From contig JAEUHG010000044.1 in assembly GCA_016795425.1 (NCBI GenBank), forward strand, positions 1-64,000: a DNA stretch of 64,000 nucleotides. Reading direction: 5' to 3'. Positions 38,336-53,691 of the stretch are shown here, piece after piece. Numbering within the stretch: the first letter of the stretch is position 1; every line of letters starts with the position of its first letter. The notes beneath the pieces were generated by a model. That model worked only from the letters and a program-made list of their open reading frames with translations. It was not told where the DNA came from and searched no databases. Source of the stretch: Verrucomicrobiales bacterium (GTDB lineage Bacteria > Verrucomicrobiota > Verrucomicrobiia > Limisphaerales > CAIMTB01). The translations under genes were made by a program, and so were the position numbers.

Positions 38336-39571
38336 ATGAGTTACCGGGCATGTGGCACGGGCTGGCGAATGGCGGCGCTGACGTTGTTGACCGGGATGTT
38401 CCTGAGCTGGCGTTGCCACGGAGCGATCGAGTGGGTTGGACGTCTCGAGGATTTTAGGACCGGTGAACCGCTCGCCGGATTTCCGGTCATGGCAGGAGAC
38501 GCGGCGAATGCCGCAAGGACGGGGGTGCGTTTGACGGACGCCAGCGGCCTCTTTCGACTCGAGTATCCAGAGGATTACCACCTGCCGAACAAGTCCTTCT
38601 ACCAGCTGATCGCTTCGCCACCGGAATCGGAAGGCGCGGGGACATGGTTTCAGCATTCCCGGATCGATCGTGCCAGGCCTTCTTTCACCAAGATCGGGAT
38701 GCTGCCGGTCAAAGGTTTCATCCGCGGGATCGTAAGATCGTTGGCGACAGGTGAGCCCATCCCCAGCGCGAAAGTGGAGGCCCAGTTCCCAACCGAGTAT
38801 CACAACCTGGCCATCGTGAGCTCTGGGACGGATGCCGCCGGACGCTTTGAAATCCAGGCCATGGCTTATGACAGTGACAGTCGGCCGAACTACCTGGACG
38901 GTATCCCTCCGGAGGCGGTGGATCCGATGGTTCAGTTTTTTGGGCCATCTCCCAGGCCGCGGAAGGATGTCGTCCTGGTGGTTCGCGCCGCGGGGTTTCA
39001 GGAGTTCGACACCCGTTCCCGGTATTTCATCCCCATGCTGTCGTGTCAGGTCGCGGACCTGATTCACACGGCGGTCGAGATCGGTCTCCCGACTGTCGAT
39101 TCGGCCACGACGGCCACATTTCGGGCGGCCATCGACGATTCTGGATTGTTGAAGCGCTGGATGAGTCGGTTCCTGATTCCCGAGGCGCTCGAGGATCCTG
39201 GCATCGCGGGTCCGAACGCCGACCCGGATCAAGACGGCGTGGTGAACCGTGTCGAGTGCGCCTACTTAAGCAATCCTGCAGACCGCAAGTCTGTGCCGAT
39301 AGACCTGTTGACGGTGCGACGGGAGAATCAAACGGTACGGGTCGATTCGCGGCGTCAACTGATTTACCGCCTGGAACGCTCAGGCTCCCTCGGAGAGACC
39401 GCAGTTTGGTCGTACATCAGCGAATTTGCCGGAGACGATCAATTTCATGAGGTCCCGCTGGAGCCTTCGACCGCCGGGACGGCGTTTTACCGGCTGGCGG
39501 TTTCGCCAGCGGCTGCGGCTGCTTTTTCGACTTTCACCTCGGCGTCCTCCACCAGCACGGCGAAGCGATAG
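38336..39571 (+). CDS. Exported protein with carboxypeptidase-regulatory-like domains
   Basis: About 411 residues with a signal peptide (RMAALTLLTGMFLSWRCHGA). The segments IEWVGRLEDFRTGEPLAGFP ... LTDASGLFRLEYP and GIVRSLATGEPIPSAKVEAQ ... TDAAGRFEIQAM are the pattern of carboxypeptidase-regulatory-like beta-sandwiches. Near the end is a thrombospondin-type-3-like DPDQDGVVNRVECAYLSNPAD, then the shared C-terminal module (YRLERSGSLGETAVWSYIS, FYRLAVSP). The ATG at 38336 gives a signal peptide of normal length; an earlier start would add 57 residues. The 3' end overlaps the convergent NrfJ-like gene by 85 bases. Confidence 0.72.
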   Translation: MSYRACGTGWRMAALTLLTGMFLSWRCHGAIEWVGRLEDFRTGEPLAGFPVMAGDAANAARTGVRLTDASGLFRLEYPEDYHLPNKSFYQLIASPPESEGAGTWFQHSRIDRARPSFTKIGMLPVKGFIRGIVRSLATGEPIPSAKVEAQFPTEYHNLAIVSSGTDAAGRFEIQAMAYDSDSRPNYLDGIPPEAVDPMVQFFGPSPRPRKDVVLVVRAAGFQEFDTRSRYFIPMLSCQVADLIHTAVEIGLPTVDSATTATFRAAIDDSGLLKRWMSRFLIPEALEDPGIAGPNADPDQDGVVNRVECAYLSNPADRKSVPIDLLTVRRENQTVRVDSRRQLIYRLERSGSLGETAVWSYISEFAGDDQFHEVPLEPSTAGTAFYRLAVSPAAAAAFSTFTSASSTSTAKR

Positions 39572-40305
39572 CCGGCGCCAAAGTCGCGGTCGCGATGAAG
39601 CTTTCCACGGGCAGTGACGAGGTCCCCAGGGGCGGCTTCCTGTTTCGTGGTGATGACCACATCGCTGGAACCGTCGGGTCCCGAGCCATCACGGACGTGG
39701 AGCCAGTTCCGTCCGAGGATGTGCTCGGAATACTTCACCACCACCCCACGAATCGCCACCATTCGTCCGGTGTACTTCTTGGGATCCTTGAGGTACTCCG
39801 CGACCTTCTGTCCGCCCTGAGGTGGCTGAAGATTCTTCGGGATCGCGACAGGTGCCGACGCGATGCTGGGGTGTTGATAGGCGCCACCGATGGAGCCGTC
39901 GTCGGACAGTGGTGGATGACCCGACGGCAGGGCGGGGGTTCCGGAGGTGGAGGCGACCTGGGTTTCGGCAGGGGCGACCGTGGGTCGGTTGGGATTGGCG
40001 ACTCTCGGAGCGAATAGGATCCACTCGAATTTCCGATCGAGCGTGGTGCTTTGAAAGTCCTTCATCACCCAACCTCCCGGGACTTGAACCTCATCGCCGG
40101 CGTTGACCGTGAAGGCGCGACTGGCGACCCAGGTCTTCTCCTGGCCGTGTTCGACGAGCACGTAGGTGTAGCCGCCGGCGTCCATGGTTTCGACAACTCG
40201 ACCGGAGAAAGGTTTGGCATCGGGAGGGGGCGAAGCGGCAGAGGTGGATGGAGACGATGGGGCCAGCAGGGTGGTGAGAAGGAAGGCGAGACGTAGGGGG
40301 TTCAT
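39487..40305 (-). CDS. Exported NrfJ-like OB-fold protein
   Basis: A 272-residue protein with a signal peptide (MNPLRLAFLLTTLLAPSSP). The first domain (~32-100: FSGRVVETMDAGGYTYVLVE, WVASRAFTVNAGDEVQVPGG, MKDFQSTTLDRKFEWILFA) resembles the small NrfJ-type proteins found with multiheme nitrite reductase genes in epsilonproteobacteria, whose job is unclear. A Pro-rich spacer leads to a second OB-like domain (AEYLKDPKKYTGRMVAIRGV, DVVITTKQEAAPGDLVTARG). It lies about 108 bases after the twelve-heme cytochrome gene on the same strand and closes the electron-transfer operon. It may bind metal or a heme protein; that is inference. Confidence 0.68.
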   Translation of the reverse strand: MNPLRLAFLLTTLLAPSSPSTSAASPPPDAKPFSGRVVETMDAGGYTYVLVEHGQEKTWVASRAFTVNAGDEVQVPGGWVMKDFQSTTLDRKFEWILFAPRVANPNRPTVAPAETQVASTSGTPALPSGHPPLSDDGSIGGAYQHPSIASAPVAIPKNLQPPQGGQKVAEYLKDPKKYTGRMVAIRGVVVKYSEHILGRNWLHVRDGSGPDGSSDVVITTKQEAAPGDLVTARGKLHRDRDFGAGYRFAVLVEDAEVKVEKAAAAAGETASR

Positions 40306-40412
40306 GAGTGTGGGATCGGTTCGGCAGGTGTTGAGTTCGCAGGCGATGGAAGGCGCGGGAAATTGGGTCCCGACCAGGAGGCGAGGGCTGGGGGTACGAC
40401 GACTGTTCACGG

Positions 40413-42254
40413 TCAGTAACTTTCTGCGTTATGGGATTCGCCATGGCAAACCAGGGTGCAGTTGCCATTGAAACGGCCGGTTTTTACGAACTCGATGCGG
40501 CCGTTGCGGGGCGTGACGTAATTGAGGTTGAAATTGATGAGCTGGGTTTGGCCCGCAACTCCGTGCGGATCGTGACAAGTGGTGCAGGCGCTGCGCTCCT
40601 CCTGAACGTGCTTCTTATGTGGAAAACTGCGATCCGCCAGGATGCTGGTCCTGGAATGACACTTGTAACAAAGGGCGTAGGCGGTCGCGCTCTCCGCCTG
40701 GTTGTCCGTCAGGACGAGGTTGCGTTCCAGGATCGGGGCGAACGCGGACCCATGGGGTCCGGCGGGTCCTGTGCCTCCCGCGTTGGGTCCCTGATCGTTG
40801 TTATGGCAGTCGGTGCAATACATCATGCTGGAGGTCGTCCATGGCGCGAGGAGACTCGGCACATCGGGATTCTTCCCGACGGCAGCCACGGGGTGGAACG
40901 AGGCGCTGGTAGGCGAAAACTCGACCCGCGTGTTGGTCTCGGGGAACTGTCGATTAATCAGCGACGGCCCGCGGGAGAGGCTGTCGCCATGGCAACGGAA
41001 GCACAGTTCGAACTCCTTCTGCAGCGGCCGGGTGACGGTTCCGTCCACGGTGATACCGGTGACACCATCCAGGGCGCCACTCGCATTCGGTGCCGACGCT
41101 GGTCGCCCGTTGGAAGCGTGAGGATTGTGGCAATCCACGCATTCAACATGTCGGGCGGCGTTCACGGGATCCTCGGTGGGATCATGAACATGGGTCGTGA
41201 GGTGGATCGGATGGACGCTCGATTTATTGAACACCGCTTCAACGTTCTTCGATGCCACGTTGCCGTTGTGACAGGCAGTGCAGTTGTCCTCTTCAGTGGC
41301 GAAATTGAGTAGGCGTTCCGGAGTGCCAGCCGAATGGGGACGGTGACAGTTCTCGCACGCGTTGTCGGAGACGGTCGTCAACGCGGTGTGCGGCCATGGA
41401 TCGGGGGTCGAACCATTCCAGGTTCGCGAGGATGTCGCGTGCGAGGAACCGGCCCACTGATTGGGCGCATGACATTCGAGGCAGAGGGCGGAGGCCGTGT
41501 TGGGCATCACCAGGAAGGAGCCATTGGCATCGTCATGCGGATCATGGCAGGTCGTGCATTGCAGCTGGCCGTTCTCGAGACGGACGCGCCCGGAAAGCGC
41601 CGACGGGTCGCGCAATTGGCCATTCGCCGCGGCAAGGCTGCTGCTGTAGACGAAGCTGATGGGGTGATCATCCGACAGGTCGGTTCCGAGATGGGCTGGG
41701 TGCCCGTTCGGCATCGTGGTGATGCCGCCCGACATGGGGATGGGTTCGGTGCGACTCTGCACCATGCCGAGCGCGATGGTGCCGTCGTGGCAGCTCAGGC
41801 AGAGGCGTGAGGAGCCGGTGGGCTGCCCGATGGCGGCCTTGGTGGTGCTACTCAGGTACGTGGTGTAATTCGCGCCCGAACTGGTTCGATTCCAGAGCGG
41901 GGCTTCCCCGCTCGCCCCGTGCGGTGTGTGGCAGAAGATGCAGACCTCGGTCTCCGTCGAGGCTCGAACGGGCCCGGGACCGGAGGCGGACAAATTGTGG
42001 CGGCTGTTGACGATACTGTCCGCAACGGCTGACGTCCCCGACCAGGCGATCAGGATCGCCACGCACAACGCGCCCCAGGCTCGCTCGCGGGTTTCACCGG
42101 GCGCACCGAGCGGATTCAGCCTGGAAGAGAACGTCGGACGCTCTTGCAGGAGCCCCGTCGTCCCGAACGACGAGCAGTCGGGAGAACCACGAGGCGTCGC
42201 GCCGATGGCGACCCATTCCCAGGCGGAGGTTGGATCACAGGGGCGTGGCGACAT
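40413..42254 (-). CDS. Exported twelve-heme c-type cytochrome (doubled-CXXCH type)
   Basis: Eleven CXXCH motifs (CIFCH, CLSCH, CTTCH, CLECH, CENCH, CTACH, CVDCH, CFRCH, CTDCH, CYKCH, CTTCH) plus a terminal CTLVCH, a CX3CH that may bind a twelfth heme. Several read CHTPHG, CHDPHD, CHRPHS or CHNPHA, the doubled-CXXCH style seen in metal-reducer cytochromes. The signal-like segment is WGALCVAILIAWSGTSAVADS. The start is uncertain: the ATG at 42254 leaves ~58 residues ahead of that segment and overlaps the NHL gene by 20 bases, while a TTG close to the segment would be an alternative. A four-heme cytochrome at 47.3 kb shares its first half (HTPHxAxxxAPLWN, CLSCHDGT, GTDLxxDHPxSFVY). Confidence 0.85.
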   Translation of the reverse strand: MSPRPCDPTSAWEWVAIGATPRGSPDCSSFGTTGLLQERPTFSSRLNPLGAPGETRERAWGALCVAILIAWSGTSAVADSIVNSRHNLSASGPGPVRASTETEVCIFCHTPHGASGEAPLWNRTSSGANYTTYLSSTTKAAIGQPTGSSRLCLSCHDGTIALGMVQSRTEPIPMSGGITTMPNGHPAHLGTDLSDDHPISFVYSSSLAAANGQLRDPSALSGRVRLENGQLQCTTCHDPHDDANGSFLVMPNTASALCLECHAPNQWAGSSHATSSRTWNGSTPDPWPHTALTTVSDNACENCHRPHSAGTPERLLNFATEEDNCTACHNGNVASKNVEAVFNKSSVHPIHLTTHVHDPTEDPVNAARHVECVDCHNPHASNGRPASAPNASGALDGVTGITVDGTVTRPLQKEFELCFRCHGDSLSRGPSLINRQFPETNTRVEFSPTSASFHPVAAVGKNPDVPSLLAPWTTSSMMYCTDCHNNDQGPNAGGTGPAGPHGSAFAPILERNLVLTDNQAESATAYALCYKCHSRTSILADRSFPHKKHVQEERSACTTCHDPHGVAGQTQLINFNLNYVTPRNGRIEFVKTGRFNGNCTLVCHGESHNAESY

Positions 42255-43305
42255 ACTCAAACACCTGCACCCGCTGGTTGTAGGAATCGGCGACGAGAAT
42301 CTGGTGTCCGGAGGCCGCGACACCGCTGGGCAGCCAGAATTCGCCCGGACGCCGACCCGTGTGACCGACCGGCAGAAGAAATCGCCCGTCACCATCGAAG
42401 ATCTGGAAATTGTCGAACAAGGCGTCCGCCACGTAGACGTGACCGAACGAATCCGCCGCGACTCCTTTGGGCCGGCTGAGTTGTCCGGAGCTATCTCCCA
42501 GTCGCCCGATCACACGGAGCGCGGCGCCATCGCGACCGAGAACCTGAATCCTGCCGTTCAGGGCATCCGTGACCAGCAGCCGGCCCGATGGGTCGATGGC
42601 GATGTGGGTAGGAAAATTGAACTCGCCGGGTTGAACGCCGCGGCGGCCCAGTCGACGCAAAGGGCGGCCATCCAATCCGAAGACCTCGATGCGGTGGTTG
42701 GCCGAATCGACGACAAACAGTTCGTCGTGGTCGATGGCGAGGCCGGAAGGACGAACCAGTGGATCCGCAAGATCCAGGCGGATCTTGAGATCGTCCGTAA
42801 ACGCCAGGACACGGCCGAGGCTGGAGTCGGCGAGGTAGTTCACCCCTTGCCAACGGGCGATGCCGACCGGGGACCGGAGTTGGTAAGAGCCGACCTTGTC
42901 CCAGATGTGGAACTCCTTCTTGGCGCGGTCCAGGCACCACACCTTGCCGGAGCCCGTGTCGGTGACGCAGATGACGCCTTGATCGTCCATGGCGAGACCG
43001 CAAGGGCGGACGAGGCGTTCCTGGTCGGGTTGATTTCCGGTGAACCAGCCGGCGAGCCGCCGCAAGGCCGAGGAGCGTAACCCAAGATCAGCCGGCGATC
43101 CGAAGGTGAGCCGGAGCCCGATGCGGGCGGGTTCCGGGGCGGAAGGCCAGCGTTCCTGGAAGGCATGGGGATTCGCCGGGTCGCGCAGCGGGTCCTGGGC
43201 CGGACCGTGTCCATGGCAACCGGTCAGGACGACCAGGAGTCCGATAGACAGCGTTCGTGGGATGATTCCCTGGCGTGCTTGCAGGACGGAATGGAACGGC
43301 GTCAT
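42235..43305 (-). CDS. NHL-repeat lipoprotein
   Basis: A 356-residue protein with a lipobox (IGLLVVLTGCHG) and a six-bladed NHL propeller, for example LVRPCGLAMDDQGVICVTDT, LVRPSGLAIDHDELFVVDSA, FPTHIAIDPSGRLLVTDALN and LSRPKGVAADSFGHVYVADA. It starts 8 bases after the beta-barrel gene stops. NHL proteins of this kind are regular neighbours of multiheme cytochromes in Geobacter-type clusters and may act as scaffolds or docking proteins. The first conserved blade follows a ~90-residue N-terminal stretch. A second, distinct NHL lipoprotein lies upstream of the porin. Confidence 0.85.
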   Translation of the reverse strand: MTPFHSVLQARQGIIPRTLSIGLLVVLTGCHGHGPAQDPLRDPANPHAFQERWPSAPEPARIGLRLTFGSPADLGLRSSALRRLAGWFTGNQPDQERLVRPCGLAMDDQGVICVTDTGSGKVWCLDRAKKEFHIWDKVGSYQLRSPVGIARWQGVNYLADSSLGRVLAFTDDLKIRLDLADPLVRPSGLAIDHDELFVVDSANHRIEVFGLDGRPLRRLGRRGVQPGEFNFPTHIAIDPSGRLLVTDALNGRIQVLGRDGAALRVIGRLGDSSGQLSRPKGVAADSFGHVYVADALFDNFQIFDGDGRFLLPVGHTGRRPGEFWLPSGVAASGHQILVADSYNQRVQVFEYVATPL

Positions 43306-43313
43306 GGGAGGCG

Positions 43314-45341
43314 TCAGAAGGTTCGGCGCACCTTCAGGTAGAGGTAATGCTTGTGGTACACGTCAGCGAAATAGGCCTCGTCGTGGTACTCATAGCCGAG
43401 CAGGGCCGCGAAGCGTCCCAGGGTGTAGGAAATGTCCGCCCGCGCGGTGAAGATCGTTTGGTCGACGCCGTCGCCCTGCTCGATTCGATAGCCACCTTCC
43501 AGCTTGATGCTGACGGACCGCACCGGACGAATCTCGCAGCGTGCGATGAAATCCTGGTAGTTGACGCGGCGGTCGGTGTCTGGGAAGGCGGTGAAGGTCT
43601 GACTCAGGTTGATGCCCAGATTGGCATAAGTGAGGGGAGCCCAGTTGTAGCCTTCGCGGAATCGATAGGCTGTGTAGGGGGTCAGCGTGGAGTCGTAGTT
43701 TTCGTACTCGGCACCCAGTTGGAGGCCGCGCCATTCCGATTCCACGCCGACGACCGTATCAACGAACTCATTTAGGGTGGCCGAGGAGCCGCCGGGCTTC
43801 TCGTCGATGGTCATGCGCGCATAAAGACTGAGCAGACGCCCGAAGAGATCGAGACGCCACTGAAACGACTGGATCAGGTTGGTGTATTGGTCTGACTCCT
43901 GGTTGCGGGCGACGTAGCTGACCAACACCTCGCCGCCGTTGGGGATGTGGCCGCCGGAAACGCGTCGGATTTCGGTCACCTCGCCGCGGGCGAAGAGGAC
44001 GTAGTCCAGATTCGGGAGGTAGAGAATTGTTCCGGTGCTGTCGGTGACGCGGAGGGTAGCCGGATCGGCGTTGGGCAAGGCGAGCAGGGTGACGTCGGTG
44101 TCTCGCAACGTGTGAGGTTCATCCAGAATCTGAATGTCGCCGCCGGTGAAGGTGCGTTCTTCGGGTTGGATTCCGAAGGAGTAACCCAGGTGAAGGCGTC
44201 CCCACGAACCCAGCTTCTTCGTGTAGTTCTCCGACAGCGTGGCGCCGTAGCGAAAGACGTCGAGGGAACCCGAGGCACCGCGGCTGGTCTGGTCGTCGCC
44301 CCGAAACTCGAGGGAGGACGTCAGGCTTTCGTAGAGTTGATGCTGGATGCCAGCCCCGCCGGTGTGTCCTGTGTTCTCCGTTCCGCCGGACGTGCGCCGG
44401 TTGAAGGAATAGTCATAGAAGGTTTGCAGTGCTGAGGAGTGGCGCAGGAGCACGTTCTCATTGAACTGAAAGTCCTCGTCGCTGCGTCCGGTGGAATCGA
44501 CGCGGCCATAGCGCAGCAGTGACCGCAGAAGAATCCAATCGGCCGTGCCCAGTTTCTCGGAATCGGTGAGATCGGCACGGTGTGACTGACCGGAATCAGA
44601 GGCGAAGCCACGGTTGAGGCGGTCGAATGTGTTGTGAGTGTAGGTGAATTGGGTTTCACCGCCGTAGGCCCGCGAATTTCGCGCGTCCGCGGTCAGGATC
44701 TCCTCGTCGGTGGAACTGGGCCGGGCCATCCCCGACTCCGATTCGCTGCGCCGGTCGTAAGAGACGGTGACCGGGATCAGGCCGGCGCGATAACCGGCGC
44801 TTCCACCATAGCTCTCGGAATCGACGACGGTGCGGGTGAAGAAGTCGAGGTCCCGGAAGGCGCGACCGCGAGAGGCGTGGAAGATCGGCGAGTAGGGCTT
44901 GTCCTTCAGGATGCGGCCGTTCAGGTGGTAGCGGATCAAGGGATCCCAGCTGCTCTCGCTCCCATTGCTGGCCGGATCGGGTGATCCCGAGAGGTCGAAC
45001 TGCTCGTAGGCCACCAGATTCTCGCCGAAGAGGTCATACTCAAACAGGTTCGGGTGGTAGATGGACCCGCGCCCGCCCACTTCCACGACGGGCGCGACGT
45101 ACAGCCTGTCCCGGGTGTTGGGAGTGTCGGAGAAGCCACCGCGCCATTCCTGGGATTCGGCCTCTACATCGAGTCCCGCGGCGAGACGTTCGAGCCGGAA
45201 TCGCATCCAGCGGGGAGGCAGAGGTTCGGTGGCTTCCGCACCCGCCGTCCGTGTGGTCAGGGAACGATGACCGATCATGAGAAATCCCAAGGCCATCCAG
45301 CGGCGCCAATTGCATCCAGGCGTGCACCGAGGAACCCTCAT
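43314..45341 (-). CDS. Outer-membrane beta-barrel (candidate porin of a porin-cytochrome complex)
   Basis: A 675-residue protein with a signal peptide (RRWMALGFLMIGHRSLTTRTAGA). The body shows alternating hydrophobic/polar strands with many Tyr, Arg and Asp residues, no catalytic motifs, and it ends YLYLKVRRTF with a terminal Phe, the usual outer-membrane assembly signal. Strand counts above 20 seem likely (FIARCEIRPVRSVSIKLEGG, ADISYTLGRFAALLGYEY and many others). The ATG overlaps the stop of the five-heme lipoprotein gene (ATGA). Its position between multiheme genes is that of MtrB/OmbB-type porins that sheathe a cytochrome. No direct similarity to MtrB could be established by eye. Confidence 0.82.
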   Translation of the reverse strand: MRVPRCTPGCNWRRWMALGFLMIGHRSLTTRTAGAEATEPLPPRWMRFRLERLAAGLDVEAESQEWRGGFSDTPNTRDRLYVAPVVEVGGRGSIYHPNLFEYDLFGENLVAYEQFDLSGSPDPASNGSESSWDPLIRYHLNGRILKDKPYSPIFHASRGRAFRDLDFFTRTVVDSESYGGSAGYRAGLIPVTVSYDRRSESESGMARPSSTDEEILTADARNSRAYGGETQFTYTHNTFDRLNRGFASDSGQSHRADLTDSEKLGTADWILLRSLLRYGRVDSTGRSDEDFQFNENVLLRHSSALQTFYDYSFNRRTSGGTENTGHTGGAGIQHQLYESLTSSLEFRGDDQTSRGASGSLDVFRYGATLSENYTKKLGSWGRLHLGYSFGIQPEERTFTGGDIQILDEPHTLRDTDVTLLALPNADPATLRVTDSTGTILYLPNLDYVLFARGEVTEIRRVSGGHIPNGGEVLVSYVARNQESDQYTNLIQSFQWRLDLFGRLLSLYARMTIDEKPGGSSATLNEFVDTVVGVESEWRGLQLGAEYENYDSTLTPYTAYRFREGYNWAPLTYANLGINLSQTFTAFPDTDRRVNYQDFIARCEIRPVRSVSIKLEGGYRIEQGDGVDQTIFTARADISYTLGRFAALLGYEYHDEAYFADVYHKHYLYLKVRRTF

Positions 45342-46009
45342 GACTTCGGTGCCGGAGTGAGTCCGGCCAGGTTCCGGAGCAGGTACTCCCGGGATCCACG
45401 GTGCGGATCGTGACAAGTGATGCAGTCGGAACGCGCGGCGTCCTGGTGGCCGTCGACCCGGCTCAGCAGATCGGCGTCGTGACACTGGAGGCACAGTTCC
45501 GCGGCCTTCTTGACGAGGAGATGGGGAGATTCGGTGGTGTGTGGATGATGACAGGCGAGGCATTCACCGTTGCGAACCGGGCTGTGAACGAAGGCGCCTT
45601 CGGCGACCGTCTTGGCGTGACATCCCTGGCAGAGTTGATCGCGAGGGGCGCGCAGGGCATGGGAGAATCGGGCGCTGTGGCACTCCTGGCACTGGCGGTC
45701 GCCGTACGGTGCGTGAATGCTGACCACCAATGAAGTTGGCGGCTCGCCCGAGGAGGTGCGCAGAAAGCGATTCGATAACGCGTTGGTCGGCGGATGGGGT
45801 GTTCCCGCAAGGACCGCGGCATGGTTGGTGCGAGAATTGGGAACGCCATCCAGGAAATGGGAAAGCAGTGCCCGTCGACGCTCTGGCGTGCCGCATCCGG
45901 AAGCCGCGAGCAAAAGCGGCAGACCGCAGGCAAGGCCCATCGTCAGTCCGCGCACCCAGGGGGAGCGTGTCCACCTGGGACGGGTGAACTCTGGATGACT
46001 TCCGATCAT
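45338..46009 (-). CDS. Five-heme cytochrome lipoprotein
   Basis: A 223-residue protein with a lipobox (GLPLLLAASGCGTPE) after an unusually long positively charged N-terminus. Five CXXCH motifs (CQECH, CQGCH, CLACH, CLQCH, CITCH) are packed within about 100 residues. Extra histidines (HSPVRNGECLACHHPHT, CITCHDPHRG) suit bis-His ligation. The start overlaps the stop of the NHL gene upstream, and its stop overlaps the porin start (both ATGA). A small lipid-anchored multiheme next to a barrel suggests the cytochrome that plugs the porin, either periplasmic or surface side. Confidence 0.87.
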   Translation of the reverse strand: MIGSHPEFTRPRWTRSPWVRGLTMGLACGLPLLLAASGCGTPERRRALLSHFLDGVPNSRTNHAAVLAGTPHPPTNALSNRFLRTSSGEPPTSLVVSIHAPYGDRQCQECHSARFSHALRAPRDQLCQGCHAKTVAEGAFVHSPVRNGECLACHHPHTTESPHLLVKKAAELCLQCHDADLLSRVDGHQDAARSDCITCHDPHRGSREYLLRNLAGLTPAPKS

Positions 46010-47169
46010 GGAGACTTCGCCGAGGCAGTCGCGGACGGTGCTGATTTCTGCTCCGTCACGGGCCCGCGGGCGGGTGGTGGGGTGGACTCGCCGCGCCGGT
46101 GGCCGAAGCCGAAGACCGACACCTTGTTGGGTCCGTACTGGCTGGTGACGAAGAGGAGATATTCGACCTCGAAGTCCGGCGCGGCATAGCGCTGGAAGTG
46201 CTCGAGGTGATCGTAATCGATGACCACCTTGGCGGGCAGGACGAGGCCACCGCGGCTGCCCGCGGACTCGCCAAAGAAGACGAGGAGGCGTCCCTCGGCG
46301 TCAAAGACCTGCACAACCTCGGTGGCCGCGTCGACGACATAGACGCGGCCATCACGGTCGACGGCGACACCCTTGGGGCGGACCATGCCGCCGACGTGAT
46401 CACCAAGTTCGCCGAGCCGGCGGAGGAATCGTCCGTCGGGTGCGTAGATCTTCACGTTGAACGAACCCATGTCGGAGACGTAGACCTTCCCGTCGGCGCC
46501 CACCGCGATGTTGGCGGGCGAGAAGATCTGGCCTTCCTCCGATTCGCCCTCTTTTGGGATCCGGTAGAGTTCCTGGCGCGAGTCTTTGTCGAGGACTTTG
46601 ACGCCATGCTCGAGGAGGTCGGCAATGTAGAGACGGTTGCCTTGCACCACGACGTCGCTGGGTTTGGTGGTGCCGCGGGCGCCGATCGAACCGAGAAATC
46701 GGTCGTCCTTGCCGTAGATTAGAACCACGCCCCAGGCCGTGTCGGCGATGTACCGCGTGCCATCCGCGTCGATGGCGAGATTGATCGGTTTTCCGAGCCG
46801 TCCCGGACCTTCGGGGCGGAAGTAGTGGAGTTTTCCGGTGCGAAGGTCCACCTGGTCGACGGCGAAGGCGATGGTGTCGCAGAGGTGAACGGTGTGGTCC
46901 TGGACTGCGATGCCGTACGGTTTGATGATGGCTTGGGACGTCGGATCCTCACCGACAACGAACGATGCGAATCCGCCCTTATCGCCGCGCAGATCCTTTT
47001 CCTCGCCGAACCCGACGAGGAACTGGTACCGCGGACTGGCGGGTGGGCCAGGGTAGAAGACGTGGTTTGGGGAACCCTGGGCCTTGGATTTGCCGGGTGC
47101 CCGGCAGCTGGCGGTGACAAGGGCCAGGGCGGCCAGAGAAGCGAAGGCGAAGTGATGGAGGTGGGGCAC
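46006..47169 (-). CDS. NHL-repeat lipoprotein
   Basis: A 387-residue protein. The signal ends with a lipobox (SLAALALVTASCRAPGK). The propeller blades include IIKPYGIAVQDHTVHLCDTI, LGKPINLAIDADGTRYIADT, KPSDVVVQGNRLYIADLLE, FSPANIAVGADGKVYVSDMG and VRPKGVAVDRDGRVYVVDAA. The C-terminal ~45 residues are low-complexity Pro/Ala/Ser. It lies between the four-heme and five-heme cytochrome genes, with an ATGA overlap to the latter. Role as in the other NHL lipoprotein of the operon: probable scaffold; no enzymatic motif is seen. Confidence 0.87.
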   Translation of the reverse strand: MPHLHHFAFASLAALALVTASCRAPGKSKAQGSPNHVFYPGPPASPRYQFLVGFGEEKDLRGDKGGFASFVVGEDPTSQAIIKPYGIAVQDHTVHLCDTIAFAVDQVDLRTGKLHYFRPEGPGRLGKPINLAIDADGTRYIADTAWGVVLIYGKDDRFLGSIGARGTTKPSDVVVQGNRLYIADLLEHGVKVLDKDSRQELYRIPKEGESEEGQIFSPANIAVGADGKVYVSDMGSFNVKIYAPDGRFLRRLGELGDHVGGMVRPKGVAVDRDGRVYVVDAATEVVQVFDAEGRLLVFFGESAGSRGGLVLPAKVVIDYDHLEHFQRYAAPDFEVEYLLFVTSQYGPNKVSVFGFGHRRGESTPPPARGPVTEQKSAPSATASAKSP

Positions 47170-47265: not shown

Positions 47266-47892
47266 CTACTTGTTATGACAAGTCAGGCAGAGTGCGCTTC
47301 CTTCGTTGCTCTTCAGGAGCATTTTGCCGATTCCGGCGGTGTTGTGCACATCGTGACACGACGAGCACTGCATCTTGTGGCTGATGAGCATCTTGGCGTC
47401 GACGGTCCCGCCAAGCCCTGAGTCGCGACTCGTCGGGCTGTGGAGGCCGCCATCGGTCGACGCGAGGCTGTCGTCATAGACGAACGAGACCGGGTGGTCA
47501 TTCCTCAGGTCGGTGCCGATCAGCGCGTTTCCTGTCATGATGGTCGTACCATTGGCTCCACCGTAGCTGTCGACCGCGACCGTGCCGTCGTGGCAGCTGA
47601 GGCAGAGTTTTGATGCCCCATCCGGAGCGCCGGGGGTCGCGTTCATCGTTCCACTGGCGTAGACGGTGAACGATGCGGCAGTCATGGTGTGATTCCACAA
47701 CGGCGCATCGGCGATACTGGTGTTCGCGTTGTGCGGTGTGTGGCACACGATGCAGATTTCGTTCTTGGCCCAGGCTTGCGAACTAAAGTCGTGCTTGGAC
47801 CCGACGATGCCCGCGGCTCCGTAGGCGGAGTTGAGGGCGCTTAGCATCCCGGCCGCGAGCACCAGGATGATCCGATAGGATTTGTTGTTCAT
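47266..47892 (-). CDS. Exported four-heme c-type cytochrome
   Basis: A 208-residue protein with a signal peptide (YRIILVLAAGMLSALNSAYG) and four CXXCH motifs (CIVCH, CLSCH, CSSCH, CLTCH). The stretch CIVCHTPHNANTSIADAPLW and CLSCHDGTVAVDS ... GTDLRNDHPVSFVY are close in pattern to the first half of the twelve-heme protein at 40.4 kb, suggesting duplication or shared ancestry. The ATG at 47892 is chosen over a longer frame because AAGGAAGG lies 9 bases upstream, the clearest ribosome binding site of the operon, and because the signal peptide follows at once. It is a candidate soluble periplasmic electron shuttle. The 194 bases upstream (47893-48086) hold nothing else recognised. Confidence 0.9.
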   Translation of the reverse strand: MNNKSYRIILVLAAGMLSALNSAYGAAGIVGSKHDFSSQAWAKNEICIVCHTPHNANTSIADAPLWNHTMTAASFTVYASGTMNATPGAPDGASKLCLSCHDGTVAVDSYGGANGTTIMTGNALIGTDLRNDHPVSFVYDDSLASTDGGLHSPTSRDSGLGGTVDAKMLISHKMQCSSCHDVHNTAGIGKMLLKSNEGSALCLTCHNK

Positions 47893-48086
47893 TACGGTCT
47901 GCCTTCCTTTTCTGTTGTCGGTATTGGGGTTGTTCCATCCACCCGACCCACAGGGTCGCGGTGGCGTTCTCTCGGCTGTCGCGGTTCGGTGGCAGACAGT
48001 CACCGCTCCGGTCGCAGCGGGGAGAATGGGGGCGGGGTGGCGGGTGGCCGGGGGTTCGGCGCCCTTCGTTGGAGTGGTGGCAACCC

Positions 48087-49415
48087 TCATGGCAGGCCTG
48101 ATTCCCCGGGCGGCCGAACGGATCGCCGAGTCACCAGAGAGGCGGCGGCCAGGGTCAGTCCGGCGCCCGCGACGACCCAACCGGCTCCCCCTGGATGGGT
48201 GACCTTTAGCGAGGGAGGGCCGCTTCGATGCAGTGTTTCCGCCAACGCTTCAAAAATGTAACCGTCGACGACCAGCGGACGGTGCGATTCGAGGCGATTG
48301 GTCCAACACGGTTGGCCCTTTCGTACAATGATGACGGACGCGTGGTTGAAATCGGCGGCCGATCCCCCTTTTAGAGCCCAGGCCGCCAGCGCTGCGGTGG
48401 CAGGATCGGTCTCTGCCTCGCCGCTCCCCTCGGCGGTCGTGCCGGATAAAGGCGTGGAGGCGAGGCTGTCGGGTGGCGTCGGTTCTTCGAGCGCATCGGC
48501 TTCGTAACGCAGGCGCAGCGGACTGGTCTTGGCGGCCTGTTCGGCCTCCTGGTGCATGGCGAGTTCGGGGAAGCGCGCAAAGAGCCATCGCTCGAGCGTG
48601 TATCCCGGCCCGATCTCCCGGACCAAGAGCGCGGGGTTGGCGGGCTTGTCCGATCGTGCCGTGACCTCGTGCGTCGTCGGATCCATGACGAAGTCAGGAA
48701 CGAGTCGGAGGAAGACCATGCGGAAGGCGTTGGAAGGCGTCGGACTCTCTCCCGGGGGAACGAGGAGCGGTGTGTCACCTATATGCACCGGCAATCGAAC
48801 GCTCAAGGAACGCGCCGGCCATTGGACGAGGAGTTGACCGGGGAATGGACGAAGTCCCATTGGACGTCGAACTTCGGGTGCGGAAGGAGACTTGCGCGCG
48901 GGAAGGGGCACCGCGGTTACGATCGGCTGTGGCTGCAATACCAAATCGAAGGGCAGCCTCCGAGGCCCGGATGCGGAGTCAAATTGGTGGACAGGTTGTC
49001 CGGGCTTGAGCACCAAGGTACCCGCATCATGGCGAATAGCGCCGGCCACACTGCCGAAGACAACGACCAGAAGTCCCAGGTGAAAGAAGGCCTGCGGCAT
49101 CAGTGGCGGCCGACTGAACCCGAACGCGAAGGAAGCCAGCACCAGGCAGCCCGCCGTCGACAGCAACCAAGGCGCATGAAGGCGGGCGATCCAGCCAGGC
49201 CCGGGACTCATCGGGCTCGGTACTACGACCGGAAGGGCCGTCAAGACCGCGAAAAGGATCGCGGCAGAAGTCACGCCGGCTCGAAGTCGATCGCCCGCGA
49301 GTGCGCGAGAACGCACCAGGGCTTGAGTCCGTGTCGGGTCATTGCCGCTGGGATCGGCAGCCCTTTCACACTGACGTTCCGAATGCGTCAGGACGGATGA
49401 TGCAGTTGGGGACAT
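48087..49415 (-). CDS. ResB/CcsB-like cytochrome c biogenesis protein
   Basis: A 442-residue inner-membrane protein. Three hydrophobic helices lie in the N-terminal third (about 46-66, 81-101 and 108-127), with the family His in FFHLGLLVVVFGS (His112), then a ~280-residue periplasmic domain and a C-terminal helix (VVAGAGLTLAAASLVT). This is the ResB layout. ResB partners ResA and CcsA in system II heme attachment. No CcsA lies in the window, so either it is elsewhere or this protein has a specialised role in loading heme onto the operon's cytochromes. The ATG at 49415 has no strong ribosome binding site. The 235 bases upstream contain a GGACCGGC hairpin near 49.6 kb and nothing else recognised. 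Confidence 0.72.
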   Translation of the reverse strand: MSPTASSVLTHSERQCERAADPSGNDPTRTQALVRSRALAGDRLRAGVTSAAILFAVLTALPVVVPSPMSPGPGWIARLHAPWLLSTAGCLVLASFAFGFSRPPLMPQAFFHLGLLVVVFGSVAGAIRHDAGTLVLKPGQPVHQFDSASGPRRLPFDLVLQPQPIVTAVPLPARKSPSAPEVRRPMGLRPFPGQLLVQWPARSLSVRLPVHIGDTPLLVPPGESPTPSNAFRMVFLRLVPDFVMDPTTHEVTARSDKPANPALLVREIGPGYTLERWLFARFPELAMHQEAEQAAKTSPLRLRYEADALEEPTPPDSLASTPLSGTTAEGSGEAETDPATAALAAWALKGGSAADFNHASVIIVRKGQPCWTNRLESHRPLVVDGYIFEALAETLHRSGPPSLKVTHPGGAGWVVAGAGLTLAAASLVTRRSVRPPGESGLP

Positions 49416-49650
49416 GTTGAAGTTTCGGCGCGCCCCGCTTCGGTTGCACGAGTCATGCCACTCCCTCCGCATCGGCAGGCGTCGGACCAGGGAGGTGCCA
49501 ACTAACCATGAAATCGCAGGGATCAGACCCTGAGACGGCATCGCGTGCCCGGGGTCGTTCCGGCGAAGGCGGTGGCGGTTGGTCCCGATGAGGACCGGCG
49601 AAAAGTGGGCCGGTCCCGCTCAGGACCGGCACGGTGAATCGCCGGCTATC

Positions 49651-52600
49651 TCAGAAGATCTGCGGATGACAATCCCGGCAGGAGGACTTGAGGGGTTTCC
49701 ATTGTCCCTTTTCGTGGCACTTGGCGCAGGCCACCGTGGCGTGATTCTCGTCGAGGCGGAATCGCGCCATGGTGTTGTGCTGAAATCGAAGGTCCTCGCC
49801 GACCCAGGACTGGTTGCCATGGCAGCGGCCGCAGGCAAAGCCGAGTACGCCCTGATGCGGTTCATCGGCGCGATGGCACGAGACGCACTCACCCTTTCCC
49901 GACGGGAACGCGTGAGGACCGTTCACCTTCGCGGCAATGTGACAAGCCTGGCACTCCGCCTTGAGATGTCGGCCACTGAGACGTTCGCCGTCCATGAGCA
50001 GTCGCTGGAAGTGTTGGGGACCCGGGCGTACGGTTGGCCAGGGAGTCTGAGTGTCGTGGCAGGACAGACAGTCGTTGCCGTAGGATTCGGGATGATGCGG
50101 CTCATGGCAGGGTGCGCAGGTCGTCGGTAATCCCTTGAACCTGGCCGAAGCGAGCGTCGCCTGGCCCGCGCTCGGCTGGTGACATCGGCGGCACTCAACG
50201 CTGGAGTGCCGGCCAGTCAGCGGGAAACGAGAATCAAGATCGTGCGAGAACCGGAGGTCGCCGCCGGTCCACTGCGTCGGCTGGGTATGGCAACGCGTGC
50301 AGTTCCGCTCGAACTGGCCGTTGTGTGGATCGCGATGGCAGTCGGCGCACTCGGATGGCAGGCCGCGGAACGCGGCATGGGCGAGCTTGGTTTCGGGTGG
50401 GGGCGGGATATGGCACTTCAGGCAATCGGTTTGGGCATGCTTCTGAACGAGGCTGAATTTGGAATCCTGATTGTGATCGAAGGTGAGTTGGGCCTTGTCC
50501 CACCCGCGCGTGGAATGGCACTGCGTGCAGTTTCGTTCGAATTGCCCGCGGTGCGGATCGCGATGGCAATCGGCGCAATCCGTCTTGGTTCCGCGAAAGC
50601 CGGCTGTGGCCAGGGCCTGGCCGGGGCCCGAGGTTTTGTGACATTGGAGACATGTCACCGTTGCGTGGCGATCGTGGAGTGGAAACTGCGTGTTGCGATT
50701 GTGGTCGAAGGTCAGGTGATCCAGTTTCCAGCCCGCCGGGGTATGGCATGCGGTGCAATGATCCGCCAGCGGTTGGAGATGAGGATCCTTGTGGCAATCG
50801 GCGCAGTCCGTGGCCAAACCCTTGAATTGAGCCGTCGCCAGGGAGGCGCCCGGTTCGGCCGGGGCATGGCATTTCTCACAGGTCACCTGCTGATGCCGAC
50901 CCACCAGCGGAAACTTCGAGTCTTCCAGGTGTGAGAATTCCAGGTGCGTGCCGGTCCAGCCATGCGGCGTGTGGCAGGCCGTGCAGTTCGCAGTGAACTG
51001 GCCTTGATGCGGCTCCTGGTGGCAGTCGGTGCAGGACTGGTGGGCGAGTCCGATGAAATGAATGCCGGCCTCCGGCGCGCGTGGACGGTCGTGGCATTCC
51101 TGGCAATTCACCTTGGAATGAGCGCCGACGAGGGGAAACGTGGTTTGATCGTGGGTGAAGGTGGCCGGCAGGGGTGGCATGAGGGTGCGGTTGGGCGCCG
51201 GATGTTCCTTGTGGCACTGCGTGCAATGACCTTGCAACGTGCCGTGGAAGCCAACGCGCTGGGTGCGGCGATCCTCCACGACCTGATGGCAGTCGGTGCA
51301 GCGCGAGTCCGGAATGCCACCGGTGAAGGTGTGACATCGGGTGCAATTGTCGGCTGCCGGACCGAAACGGTGCTTGAGGGAGAGTCGAGTGGGATTGATG
51401 GCGCTGGCGAAGCTGGAGGCGAACTGTTTTTTGACGGCCGCCACTTGGGTTCGCTGGAACGTGGCGGCACCGATGGATGCCATCACCGCCATGGCCACGA
51501 GCATGATGACCTCGACCTTCTTGAGCACGAGTTCCTCGCGCAGCGTGCGAGCGCTCGGCGGTGGCAGATGGGATCGGCGCGACGGCGGCAGACTGAGGGG
51601 ATGATGGTGTTCGACATACCTCATCGGCGACCAGCCATGGAAGATCGCCGGAAGCGAAATGCGTGTGCCGGGATTGATCAGTGCGAGGTAGAGGTGTCCT
51701 CCCACCGAGGCGAGGGCCGAGAAGTACAACGCGGTGTGGACATACCAGGGGAGGAGGCTGGCGCCGCGAAAATGCATGAGCGCGCCCGTGACCCCGAAGA
51801 AGACAAAGTAGAATGGCACCAGTCCCGCATTGGTCTTTTGCCCGGTGTTGAATCGCGGGGCAGGCGGCACCACCGCGCCGCGAAAGTAGAGACTGCGGAA
51901 GGACTGAATCATCCAGAGCAGGTCCACCGGGCCCCACCGAAGGAGCACACGGAGGTGCTGCCAATGGGCTCGCGGCCGTGACAGCACCACGAGGGGAACG
52001 GATATCAGCCACCCAACGGCAAAGGTCTTGTGCGCCAGGACTGCGAAGGCGAGCCAGGCCTGTTCGGTGGAGGCGAAACGGGCCACCAGCATCAGGCCGC
52101 CGCTGATCATGAGCAGCAGGAATGGGATCGCGTTGACCCAGTGCAGCACGATCTCCGGCTTCACGAAGCGGCGGAAGCGTTCAAAGTGAAACCCGTACCT
52201 GCCAGTCGTATCGTCGAGGAAAAGAAACCCGTCCTTGTCTGCTTCGCGAATCGCCTGGAGCGCCTGCGCCATCCATTGGCGGGGCGTGCGCGGCGACGAA
52301 TGGCCGGGTAGCCCGACGTCGGCGGAAGGCTCCTGAGTTGATTCCTCGGACGTGCCCGTGGCCGGAGAGACCGAAGGTTCTGCGAGGGAAGTGAGAGACT
52401 CCACCGATGCCGGATCGGCCGCGTGCCATGGGCCCAGCATGGAGTGGAGTTCATCCACCGTGATACCCAGCGGCGAGTAGATCGACGCCGTGGTCAGACG
52501 ATGCACGGCCAGAGCGCGAATCAGGCGCCGGGCGAGGGGGCGAAGGTCGGGTTCCAGGCGCGGGCAGGACCGACGTTCCAGGCGTCGACCGGCCGCCACC

Positions 52601-53691
52601 ACACCCTCTATCTCCAATCGGTGCCTCAGCCGTGGGTCCTTGGTGATCTCATACCAGTAGTCATCCAGGGTCAGGAATCCCGGGTGATCTTCCGGGACCG
52701 GGGTGCGCAGCACACGGTGAACCGCGCCGCGCAGGACGTCCCAGACGCAGCGTTCCGCCTTCACTGAGAGCCGGCCAAGTACCCTGAGGTAGTCGGGATG
52801 GATCGGATAGAGATCGATGAACGTCTCGAGGCGTGAGTCAAAAGCGCCATCGCTGGCGGTGAACTTCGACAGGTGACGTCCGATCCTTTCGCGTTGTTCG
52901 GGTGTCTTGGGCAGAAGGTGGCGCGCCACCACCTCGAAAAGATCTTCGCCTTCCAGCGTGAACTGGCAGTACCGATCCGCCAGCCGATCCCGCAGTGCGT
53001 GGGAGATCTCGACTTCCGGGCCGTCGAGGACACCGGATCGTGCATCCGCGAGCAGATGGAATCCGGATGTTTCCCCAACTTCGGCAAGAAGCAGCAGATC
53101 CTCGGCATCGCGGGCAACATCCGCCGGGTCACGGCAGGCATGGCGCAACGCCAATCCGTCGATGACGAACAGCAGGGACTGCTCCGGAGCCTGGCCGCGG
53201 AATGCGGCGGCCAGGTCCTGAAGTTGGCCCCGCAGGATTTCACGATTCCGGCGCCAGGAAAACCGCCGGCCACTTCCAGCGATGCTCAGTCTCGAGGCGA
53301 GACGCGAAACGATTCCCGGGAGGAGTTCCAGGGAAGGACCCGGGGCCTCGAGCTGGATGACCTGGAACCGTCCGGCCAGGGGTAGTGTGGCTCTCTCCAG
53401 CGCCGGATGGGGTGATCGGGCCTCCGCACCGTCCTGTCGAAGAACGGCAGAGATGGCGGCCAGGAGATGCGATTTTCCGAAGCCGGCATTGCCGGAAACA
53501 AGAAGGCTCGGAGCCCGGCAACCCGAGTCGGGATCGAGCATGGCCTCCAATCGCGGAAAGAATTCGCGGGCCAGTCGTTCCGAGAAGCCGGCGGAGACCG
53601 TCCAGGATGCCACCAGCGCTGGCGCGTCCCCTTGGGCCTTCGCACGCGATGCTGGAAAGTCCGTGATCTGAATCAGGTCGCAGTAGTCCAT
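49651..53691 (-). CDS. P-loop ATPase (DUF6079/PglY-like) fused to di-heme cytochrome b and 23-heme cytochrome c
   Basis: A single unbroken frame of 1346 residues. Residues 1-500 are a P-loop NTPase: Walker A GNAGFGKSH (67-75), Walker B LLFVIDG (173-179), and blocks FIDLYPIHPDYLRVLGRLSV and VPEDHPGFLTLDDYW that resemble DUF6079/BREX PglY. Residues ~505-700 match the formate dehydrogenase gamma/HydC cytochrome b fold: His517, His554, His652 and His666, the last pair 14 apart as in FdnI, give two b hemes. A fifth helix (728-745) leads to residues 783-1346 with 23 CXXCH motifs in ~70-residue repeats. ATPase in, five helices, multiheme out is self-consistent. The b-c part recalls Geobacter CbcL, an inner-membrane quinol oxidase for extracellular respiration. 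The ATPase fusion is unexpected. Confidence 0.9.
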   Translation of the reverse strand: MDYCDLIQITDFPASRAKAQGDAPALVASWTVSAGFSERLAREFFPRLEAMLDPDSGCRAPSLLVSGNAGFGKSHLLAAISAVLRQDGAEARSPHPALERATLPLAGRFQVIQLEAPGPSLELLPGIVSRLASRLSIAGSGRRFSWRRNREILRGQLQDLAAAFRGQAPEQSLLFVIDGLALRHACRDPADVARDAEDLLLLAEVGETSGFHLLADARSGVLDGPEVEISHALRDRLADRYCQFTLEGEDLFEVVARHLLPKTPEQRERIGRHLSKFTASDGAFDSRLETFIDLYPIHPDYLRVLGRLSVKAERCVWDVLRGAVHRVLRTPVPEDHPGFLTLDDYWYEITKDPRLRHRLEIEGVVAAGRRLERRSCPRLEPDLRPLARRLIRALAVHRLTTASIYSPLGITVDELHSMLGPWHAADPASVESLTSLAEPSVSPATGTSEESTQEPSADVGLPGHSSPRTPRQWMAQALQAIREADKDGFLFLDDTTGRYGFHFERFRRFVKPEIVLHWVNAIPFLLLMISGGLMLVARFASTEQAWLAFAVLAHKTFAVGWLISVPLVVLSRPRAHWQHLRVLLRWGPVDLLWMIQSFRSLYFRGAVVPPAPRFNTGQKTNAGLVPFYFVFFGVTGALMHFRGASLLPWYVHTALYFSALASVGGHLYLALINPGTRISLPAIFHGWSPMRYVEHHHPLSLPPSRRSHLPPPSARTLREELVLKKVEVIMLVAMAVMASIGAATFQRTQVAAVKKQFASSFASAINPTRLSLKHRFGPAADNCTRCHTFTGGIPDSRCTDCHQVVEDRRTQRVGFHGTLQGHCTQCHKEHPAPNRTLMPPLPATFTHDQTTFPLVGAHSKVNCQECHDRPRAPEAGIHFIGLAHQSCTDCHQEPHQGQFTANCTACHTPHGWTGTHLEFSHLEDSKFPLVGRHQQVTCEKCHAPAEPGASLATAQFKGLATDCADCHKDPHLQPLADHCTACHTPAGWKLDHLTFDHNRNTQFPLHDRHATVTCLQCHKTSGPGQALATAGFRGTKTDCADCHRDPHRGQFERNCTQCHSTRGWDKAQLTFDHNQDSKFSLVQKHAQTDCLKCHIPPPPETKLAHAAFRGLPSECADCHRDPHNGQFERNCTRCHTQPTQWTGGDLRFSHDLDSRFPLTGRHSSVECRRCHQPSAGQATLASARFKGLPTTCAPCHEPHHPESYGNDCLSCHDTQTPWPTVRPGPQHFQRLLMDGERLSGRHLKAECQACHIAAKVNGPHAFPSGKGECVSCHRADEPHQGVLGFACGRCHGNQSWVGEDLRFQHNTMARFRLDENHATVACAKCHEKGQWKPLKSSCRDCHPQIF

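Follow-up and report, generated by a model that had tools for sequence, protein, structure and literature searches.

Within the 64,000-nucleotide stretch of a Verrucomicrobiales bacterium genome that we analysed (assembly GCA_016795425.1, contig JAEUHG010000044.1, positions 1 to 64,000; hereafter the window), a single gene at positions 49651..53691 on the minus strand encodes a protein of 1346 amino acids that joins a BrxC-type AAA+ head, with its lid and winged helix, to an FdnI-type cytochrome b and a tail with 23 heme motifs. An earlier note on this DNA, made from the sequence alone, gave the correct coordinates for an unbroken 1346-residue frame and left its strand unstated; the frame runs on the minus strand from the ATG at 53691 to the stop at 49651 with zero internal stops, and the plus-strand frame across the gene contains many stops. 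The GC content over the gene (0.62-0.67) is similar to that of the flanking DNA. Pfam searches assigned residues 1-419 to DUF6079 (E 5e-65), residues 510-685 to Ni_hydr_CYTB (E 1e-10, above the cut-off) and the tail to cytochrome c7/c3 families, with Cytochrome_C7 in six stretches (E 4e-21). The DUF6079 profile is matched over positions 1-420 of its 1238 only, and the sequence that follows has its matches among cytochrome families; the top NCBIfam model is an FdnI-type cytochrome b, scored below that model's cut-off.

The head (all coordinates on the minus strand) starts with an N-terminal box, M-x-Y-x-[DE] (residues 1-10, 53662..53691), followed by an AAA+ (ORC/Cdc6-type) nucleotide-binding core (residues 28-255, 52927..53610) and a BrxC-type helical lid and winged helix (residues 256-507, 52171..52926), with a low-confidence linker at about 426-464. 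The earlier note had called the N-terminus PglY-like, which agrees with the DUF6079 match and with the predicted structure of the head, whose nearest folds in the PDB are those of BrxC (9zdx, 9zll); a PDB sequence search with the single head gave no BrxC match, and a profile search found it. The Walker A motif claimed before is present as GNAGFGKS (residues 67-74, 53470..53493). Of the claimed Walker B, the strand (LFVIDG, residues 174-179, 53155..53172) and Asp178 stand, but the catalytic Glu is replaced by Gly179 (FVIDG). Sequence alignment places Arg at both arginine-finger positions (R236 and R240, corresponding to BrxC K326 and R330, whose numbering carries an offset of one, checked on E269Q); for the BrxC sensor-2 residue (R430), no position on the numbering of the fusion protein was obtained. 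The protein thus resembles BrxC and PglY in having the N-terminal DUF6079 AAA+ core with Walker A and basic finger positions, and differs from them in the changed Walker B Glu, which is also changed in 34 of the 53 full-headed family members described below. Moreover, everything beyond the first winged helix, which in BrxC comprises an alpha+beta domain, a second winged helix, a coiled coil and a C-terminal dimerisation part (PMC12839542, PMC13326643), gives way here to the cytochrome b and heme parts. The segment equivalent to BrxC 1-551 is kept, without the DNA-binding and constitutive dimerisation parts.

The cytochrome b part spans residues 508-700 (51592..52170). The four His residues noted before, H517, H554, H652 and H666, are there with the last two 14 apart, and the assignment to the FdnI/HydC type is upheld by the Pfam match and by a profile alignment, weak in itself (E 0.06), in which they are in register with those of E. 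coli FdnI (1kqf; rank 19 in the Foldseek search). In this alignment H517 lies on FdnI His18 and R-F-N-T-G-Q-K (residues 613-619) on K-Y-N-A-G-Q-K of FdnI 108-114, so that an N-x-G-Q-K motif is shared; in the FdnI structure, the matched residues border the quinone site beside the heme on the cytoplasmic side. FdnI differs from the fusion protein in being a 217-aa subunit without ATPase or c-type hemes. A fifth hydrophobic helix, as had been proposed, is predicted at about residues 725-745 (51457..51519), ahead of the heme domain. Basic residues number seven in the loop 567-618 and seven in 669-724, with zero and one in the two short loops; the five predicted helices and this distribution fit a head inside and hemes outside, and the head would be cytoplasmic and the hemes periplasmic. 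The multiheme c domain (residues 783-1346, 49654..51345) holds 23 CXXCH motifs, the same number on our recount as in the earlier note.

Relatives with the same architecture are numerous. A search with the N-terminal half returned four proteins built of these three parts too (73 to 41% identity), and a scan of one genome per species returned 17 loci, with the full fusion at seven (L007-L011, L013, L015), a shortened head at two (L012, L014) and a match mainly to cytochrome b at seven others (L017-L023); the remaining locus, L016 of a Nitrospirae genome, has cytochrome b and 18 hemes but lacks a head. The nine fused loci lie in Verrucomicrobia or Opitutae metagenome-assembled genomes (MAGs), plus L010, which is the same locus as L024 in G202, and G202 belongs to the same phylum as the window's genome. 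A further search with the cytochrome b region gave 71 proteins, one of which (P0042) carries an unchecked label of Candidatus Paceibacterota. After removal of five contained duplicates (P0025, P0031, P0034, P0073, L015), of L024 and of L017-L023, the pooled set comprised 77 proteins including the fusion protein: 53 with a full head (long forms), 21 with a short head and 3 without any. Three near-identical pairs remain among them (P0059/L009, P0061/L011, P0090/L008), and the counts therefore refer to sequences and not to independent events. The cytochrome-b-region search scored 1387 candidates, the other two protein searches just those 7993 and 7994 candidates that had the most words in common, and the phylum search at most two candidates per genome; hence, the size and spread of the family given here are lower bounds.

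The four cytochrome b His residues occur in 76 of the 77 proteins and GQK in all 77; the protein lacking the first His, P0064, begins inside helix 1. Heme motifs number mostly 20 or 23 in the long forms and 17 to 26 overall. The short forms have no P-loop core but keep the lid and winged helix, and in 19 of the 21 the box [MV]-x-Y-x-[DE] forms the start or lies no more than 12 residues from it; at L012 and L014, the three forward frames in the region of the start contained no P-loop motif. Four proteins may be cut or mis-started, namely P0086 and P0088, which lack the start box and are not relied on as core losses, and the headless P0045 and P0064, not relied on as losses. In the phylum sample, 17 of 387 genomes match, two of them with the fusion (the window's genome and G202), seven with only the first ~488 positions (DUF6079 without cytochrome) and eight with scraps. 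The fusion is found in two of 58 genomes of the genus and order sample (the window's genome and G016) and in none of the four same-genus genomes, and its distribution is therefore patchy. When 14 fused and 15 stand-alone DUF6079 heads are placed in one tree, a branch with support 92/96 has all fused heads on one side, so that a single origin of the fusion is not contradicted by the sequences. One Opitutae MAG (Umea2p3_bin-1644) carries two copies, L013 and L015, each with 4- and 5-heme neighbours.

Downstream of the fusion gene, on the same strand, lies a cluster of eight open reading frames (ORFs). It begins with a 484-aa ORF (48087..49541) that has no Pfam match and, along 180 aa, is 29% identical to an ORF located some 9 kb away from the fusion at L010, followed by a 4-heme cytochrome c of uncertain start codon (47266..48180) and an NHL-repeat (beta-propeller) protein (46006..47169), the former with homologues and the latter with its closest homologues near the fusion in L007, L010, L012, L013 and L015. 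Next come a 5-heme paired-CXXCH cytochrome (45338..46009; homologues near the fusion in L010, L013 and L015), a 749-aa predicted outer-membrane beta-barrel (43314..45563), with 26-33% identity to ORFs near the fusion in L007, L010, L012 and L013, and a second NHL-repeat protein (42235..43305; closest homologues near the fusion in L007, L010 and L013). An 11-heme cytochrome c (40413..42395) matches MtrC/MtrF-type and DmsE-type profiles and shares 52-62% identity with 10- or 11-heme ORFs close to the fusion in L007, L008, L010, L012 and L013 and with a 10-heme fragment in L009; the last member is a conserved hypothetical protein (39487..40410; homologues in L010 and L013). The barrel model consists nearly entirely of long strands but is weak (pLDDT 63, pTM 0.44), and the 50 Foldseek matches listed for it, mostly outer-membrane barrels (ushers, TonB-type receptors, LptD) of low TM score, include no MtrB-type chain; hence, the name barrel rests on strand content, these matches and conservation. 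A predicted barrel gene thus stands beside 4-, 5- and 11-heme cytochrome genes, as in porin-cytochrome clusters, and the extracellular-electron-transfer setting proposed before agrees with these neighbours. Assembly genes of the ResB and/or CcsA type are found close to the fusion in L009, L010 and L012, and the short-headed L012 has a ResB gene, 4-, 11- and 13-heme ORFs and a barrel homologue as neighbours. At other loci, relatives of the 4-heme protein are matched by the N-terminal part of the 11-heme protein and vice versa; the 11-heme protein therefore looks like the 4-heme one with an added heme domain.

Among the closest described parallels are CbcL, MtrH and MtoC of Geobacter and iron oxidisers, in which an FdnI/HydC-type di-heme cytochrome b is likewise fused to a multiheme c domain beside porin-cytochrome genes. 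CbcL-type homologues carry 3 to 23 heme motifs in up to 1034 aa, four of them occur in Verrucomicrobia, and a few have five or four helices (PMC6295460). The likeness to CbcL suggested earlier does not extend to the architecture: CbcL has nine hemes first and then six helices (PMC6295460, PMC9129911), whereas the fusion has an ATPase, five predicted helices and then mostly 20 or 23 heme motifs. With its domain order reversed, it was rejected as a simple CbcL orthologue. The window's genome also encodes, close together on contig C274, two proteins (L044, L046) with 9 and 11 CXXCH motifs ahead of cytochrome b, that is, in the CbcL order. A Nitrospirae protein (L016, GWC2_42_7), in which cytochrome b is followed by 18 hemes, is 40% identical over query residues 506-1212 but lacks the DUF6079 part. 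As compared by description, the porin-multiheme clusters of freshwater Verrucomicrobia, for which electron transfer to humic substances was proposed (PMC5615132), share the phylum, a predicted porin and multiheme cytochromes; the text of that paper does not use the words cytochrome b, quinol or ATPase, and shows the inner-membrane step only as "ET in IM", the enzyme unnamed.

The fusion protein probably serves a pathway of extracellular electron transfer as its quinone enzyme in the inner membrane, with electrons likelier to move out, by quinol oxidation, than in. We tentatively favour a role of its head as a switch, in which the BrxC-type domain, by binding ATP and pairing with a second copy, would set the rate at which electrons pass between quinone and hemes; gating of electron exit by ATP is thus something that we infer. 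By analogy with FdnI, H517 would hold a heme beside the quinone site on the cytoplasmic face. Since the winged helix continues into helix 1 about 10 residues before this His, a change in the head could reach the quinone site directly. BrxC 1-551 is a monomer without ATP, forms a small share of dimers with ATP and is mostly dimeric with ATP-gamma-S, and also with ATP once the Walker B Glu is changed to Gln (PMC13326643); as the equivalent segment is retained, an ATP-dependent pairing switch is the mechanism that we prefer. Loss of the Glu in many lineages would then give a longer-lived ATP state, and lineages without the P-loop core would possess the enzyme without its ATP switch.

Several observations weigh against this preference. 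The catalytic Glu is found in only 19 of the 53 long forms (the rest having 21 Asp, 5 Gly, 4 Gln and 4 others), and its loss, mapped on a tree of the cytochrome part made by a quick method, takes 16 changes, 12 of them forced by supported branches. The finger positions are basic in 28 and 14 of the 53 long forms, and both together in only six. In the 15 stand-alone DUF6079 proteins, the Glu and the basic finger residues are present in all. The core of the long forms is poorly conserved, with a mean pairwise identity of 35% (lid 43%, cytochrome b 62%), vs 59% for the core and 56% for the lid of the stand-alone proteins. Moreover, of the 74 proteins with any DUF6079 part, 21 lack the P-loop core (6 changes on the tree, 5 forced), and the nucleotide site is therefore dispensable and ATP sensing not indispensable. 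A different account is nearly as likely and simpler for the short forms: the lid and winged helix, present in all 74 proteins, would dock or dimerise the enzyme on the cytoplasmic face as a scaffold, and the nucleotide site would be a non-regulating relic that is lost piecemeal. The 95-100% conservation of K262, Q266, H298 and P299 over long and short forms together also speaks for it. However, a decaying site should lose Walker A equally fast, and the core is still present in 53 of the 74 proteins after long divergence. Among 69 core columns near-invariant in the stand-alone proteins, whose mean retention in Glu-less fusions is 58%, G67, G72, Asp178 and K73 rank 1, 2, 5 and 7 (with several ties) and the finger positions 48 and 58; of the 53 long forms, 51 have an intact Walker A and 52 keep the Walker B Asp. 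In these alignments, nucleotide-binding residues are thus held while partner-sensing and hydrolytic residues drift. The presumably structural F109, V111 and G107 are retained as well as Walker A, which again counts against the switch, and equal retention of F109 and G107 means that Walker A retention alone is no proof of nucleotide binding.

The remaining explanations are considerably less probable than either the ATP switch or the scaffold. It is improbable that the protein is a membrane-tethered regulator whose winged helix binds DNA while the heme chain senses electron flow, in the manner of ToxR and CadC. ToxR-type proteins have the same order, and the winged helix here likewise stands directly ahead of helix 1. 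Yet the equivalent BrxC 1-551 does not bind DNA on its own (PMC13326643). The mean net charge of the winged-helix stretch (-0.7 in long, -1.1 in short and -1.3 in stand-alone forms) and of the presumed recognition-helix stretch (-1.6, -1.9 and -2.5) says little on DNA binding, since the stand-alone proteins are equally negative. A function in phage defence, in which BrxC-type phage sensing would act through a membrane effector to drain or block respiration, could be argued from the other known occurrences of DUF6079, in BREX and systems related to it (PMC12839542), but seems very improbable: the genes around the fusion are for cytochromes and a predicted barrel, joined in relatives by genes for cytochrome assembly, the protein lacks the parts with which BrxC binds DNA, no BREX genes lie near the fusion, and the window's genome (94% complete) holds no PglZ and no other DUF6079 protein (BrxB and BrxX were not searched for). 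Membership in a BREX system was thus rejected for the lack of PglZ and of the BrxC C-terminal parts. Finally, two adjacent genes might have been joined by a frameshift or assembly error, and two of the first four fused relatives (P0002, P0004) indeed lie on contigs below 9 kb. The probability of this is negligible, since the fusion recurs in dozens of homologues: the same three parts in the same order in 53 of the 77 proteins exclude a chance joining, the relatives with this fusion refute an artefact, and P0003, P0031, P0047 and P0078 lie on contigs above 100 kb and the window's own on one of 113 kb.

We also considered a bolder version of the ATP-dependent head, which we regard as unlikely: an AAA+ motor whose cycle would pair and unpair the enzyme, so that quinol electrons are pushed, or gated one way, across the membrane voltage and leave the cell by the 23-heme chain. 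It would be the first case of an AAA+ ATPase integrated into a quinone enzyme, with the catalytic acid moved to position 216 in two branches, that of the fusion protein included, and the ATPase alive rather than a relic. Asp216 (53044..53046) lies on strand 211-218, which in an AAA+ sheet is the neighbour of Walker B. Position 216 is Asp or Glu in nine of the 13 long forms without an acid at 179 (the fusion protein included), an acid in none of the 40 with one, and Gly in all 15 stand-alone proteins; this Gly is retained in 89% of Glu-keeping and 15% of Glu-less fusions. In a Fisher test over 226 core positions it ranks first; however, only two clades contribute the nine cases, and position 122 behaves alike (9/13 vs 2/40), so that the p-value is phylogenetically unsound. 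A relocation of the catalytic acid from 179 to 216 is therefore a lead suggested by the alignment, not a result. Four long forms (P0036, P0043, P0074, P0081) have no acid at either position, P0074 has lost most of its nucleotide site, and P0039 has Arg in place of the Walker A Lys.

In agreement with the earlier note, no published account of this architecture was located. A full-text literature search for DUF6079 together with cytochrome, with subscription papers and preprints mostly outside its reach, found nothing, and the DUF6079 literature within the same reach concerned BREX only; among the titles seen on AAA+ ATPases with multiheme cytochromes, extracellular electron transfer, quinol or Verrucomicrobiota, none dealt with such a fusion. 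The protein bears on the question of how electron flow to acceptors outside the cell is controlled. In view of the known layout of FdnI, export through a cytochrome of this type would carry charge outward and release protons inside at the cost of membrane voltage, and a direct link to ATP would therefore make sense. The fusion unites, in a single chain, a predicted quinone enzyme and a module whose solved relative dimerises on ATP, and an ATPase module of phage defence is reused in what appears to be energy metabolism. Since natural versions exist with and without the P-loop, and with and without the catalytic Glu, the question can be tested in one protein.

Just past the cluster, positions 34290-38180 encode a large protein with CotH kinase and lamin-tail domains. 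Upstream of the fusion gene, on the same strand, positions 56887-59157 encode 756 aa that begin with a methyltransferase domain and continue in a long unassigned part.

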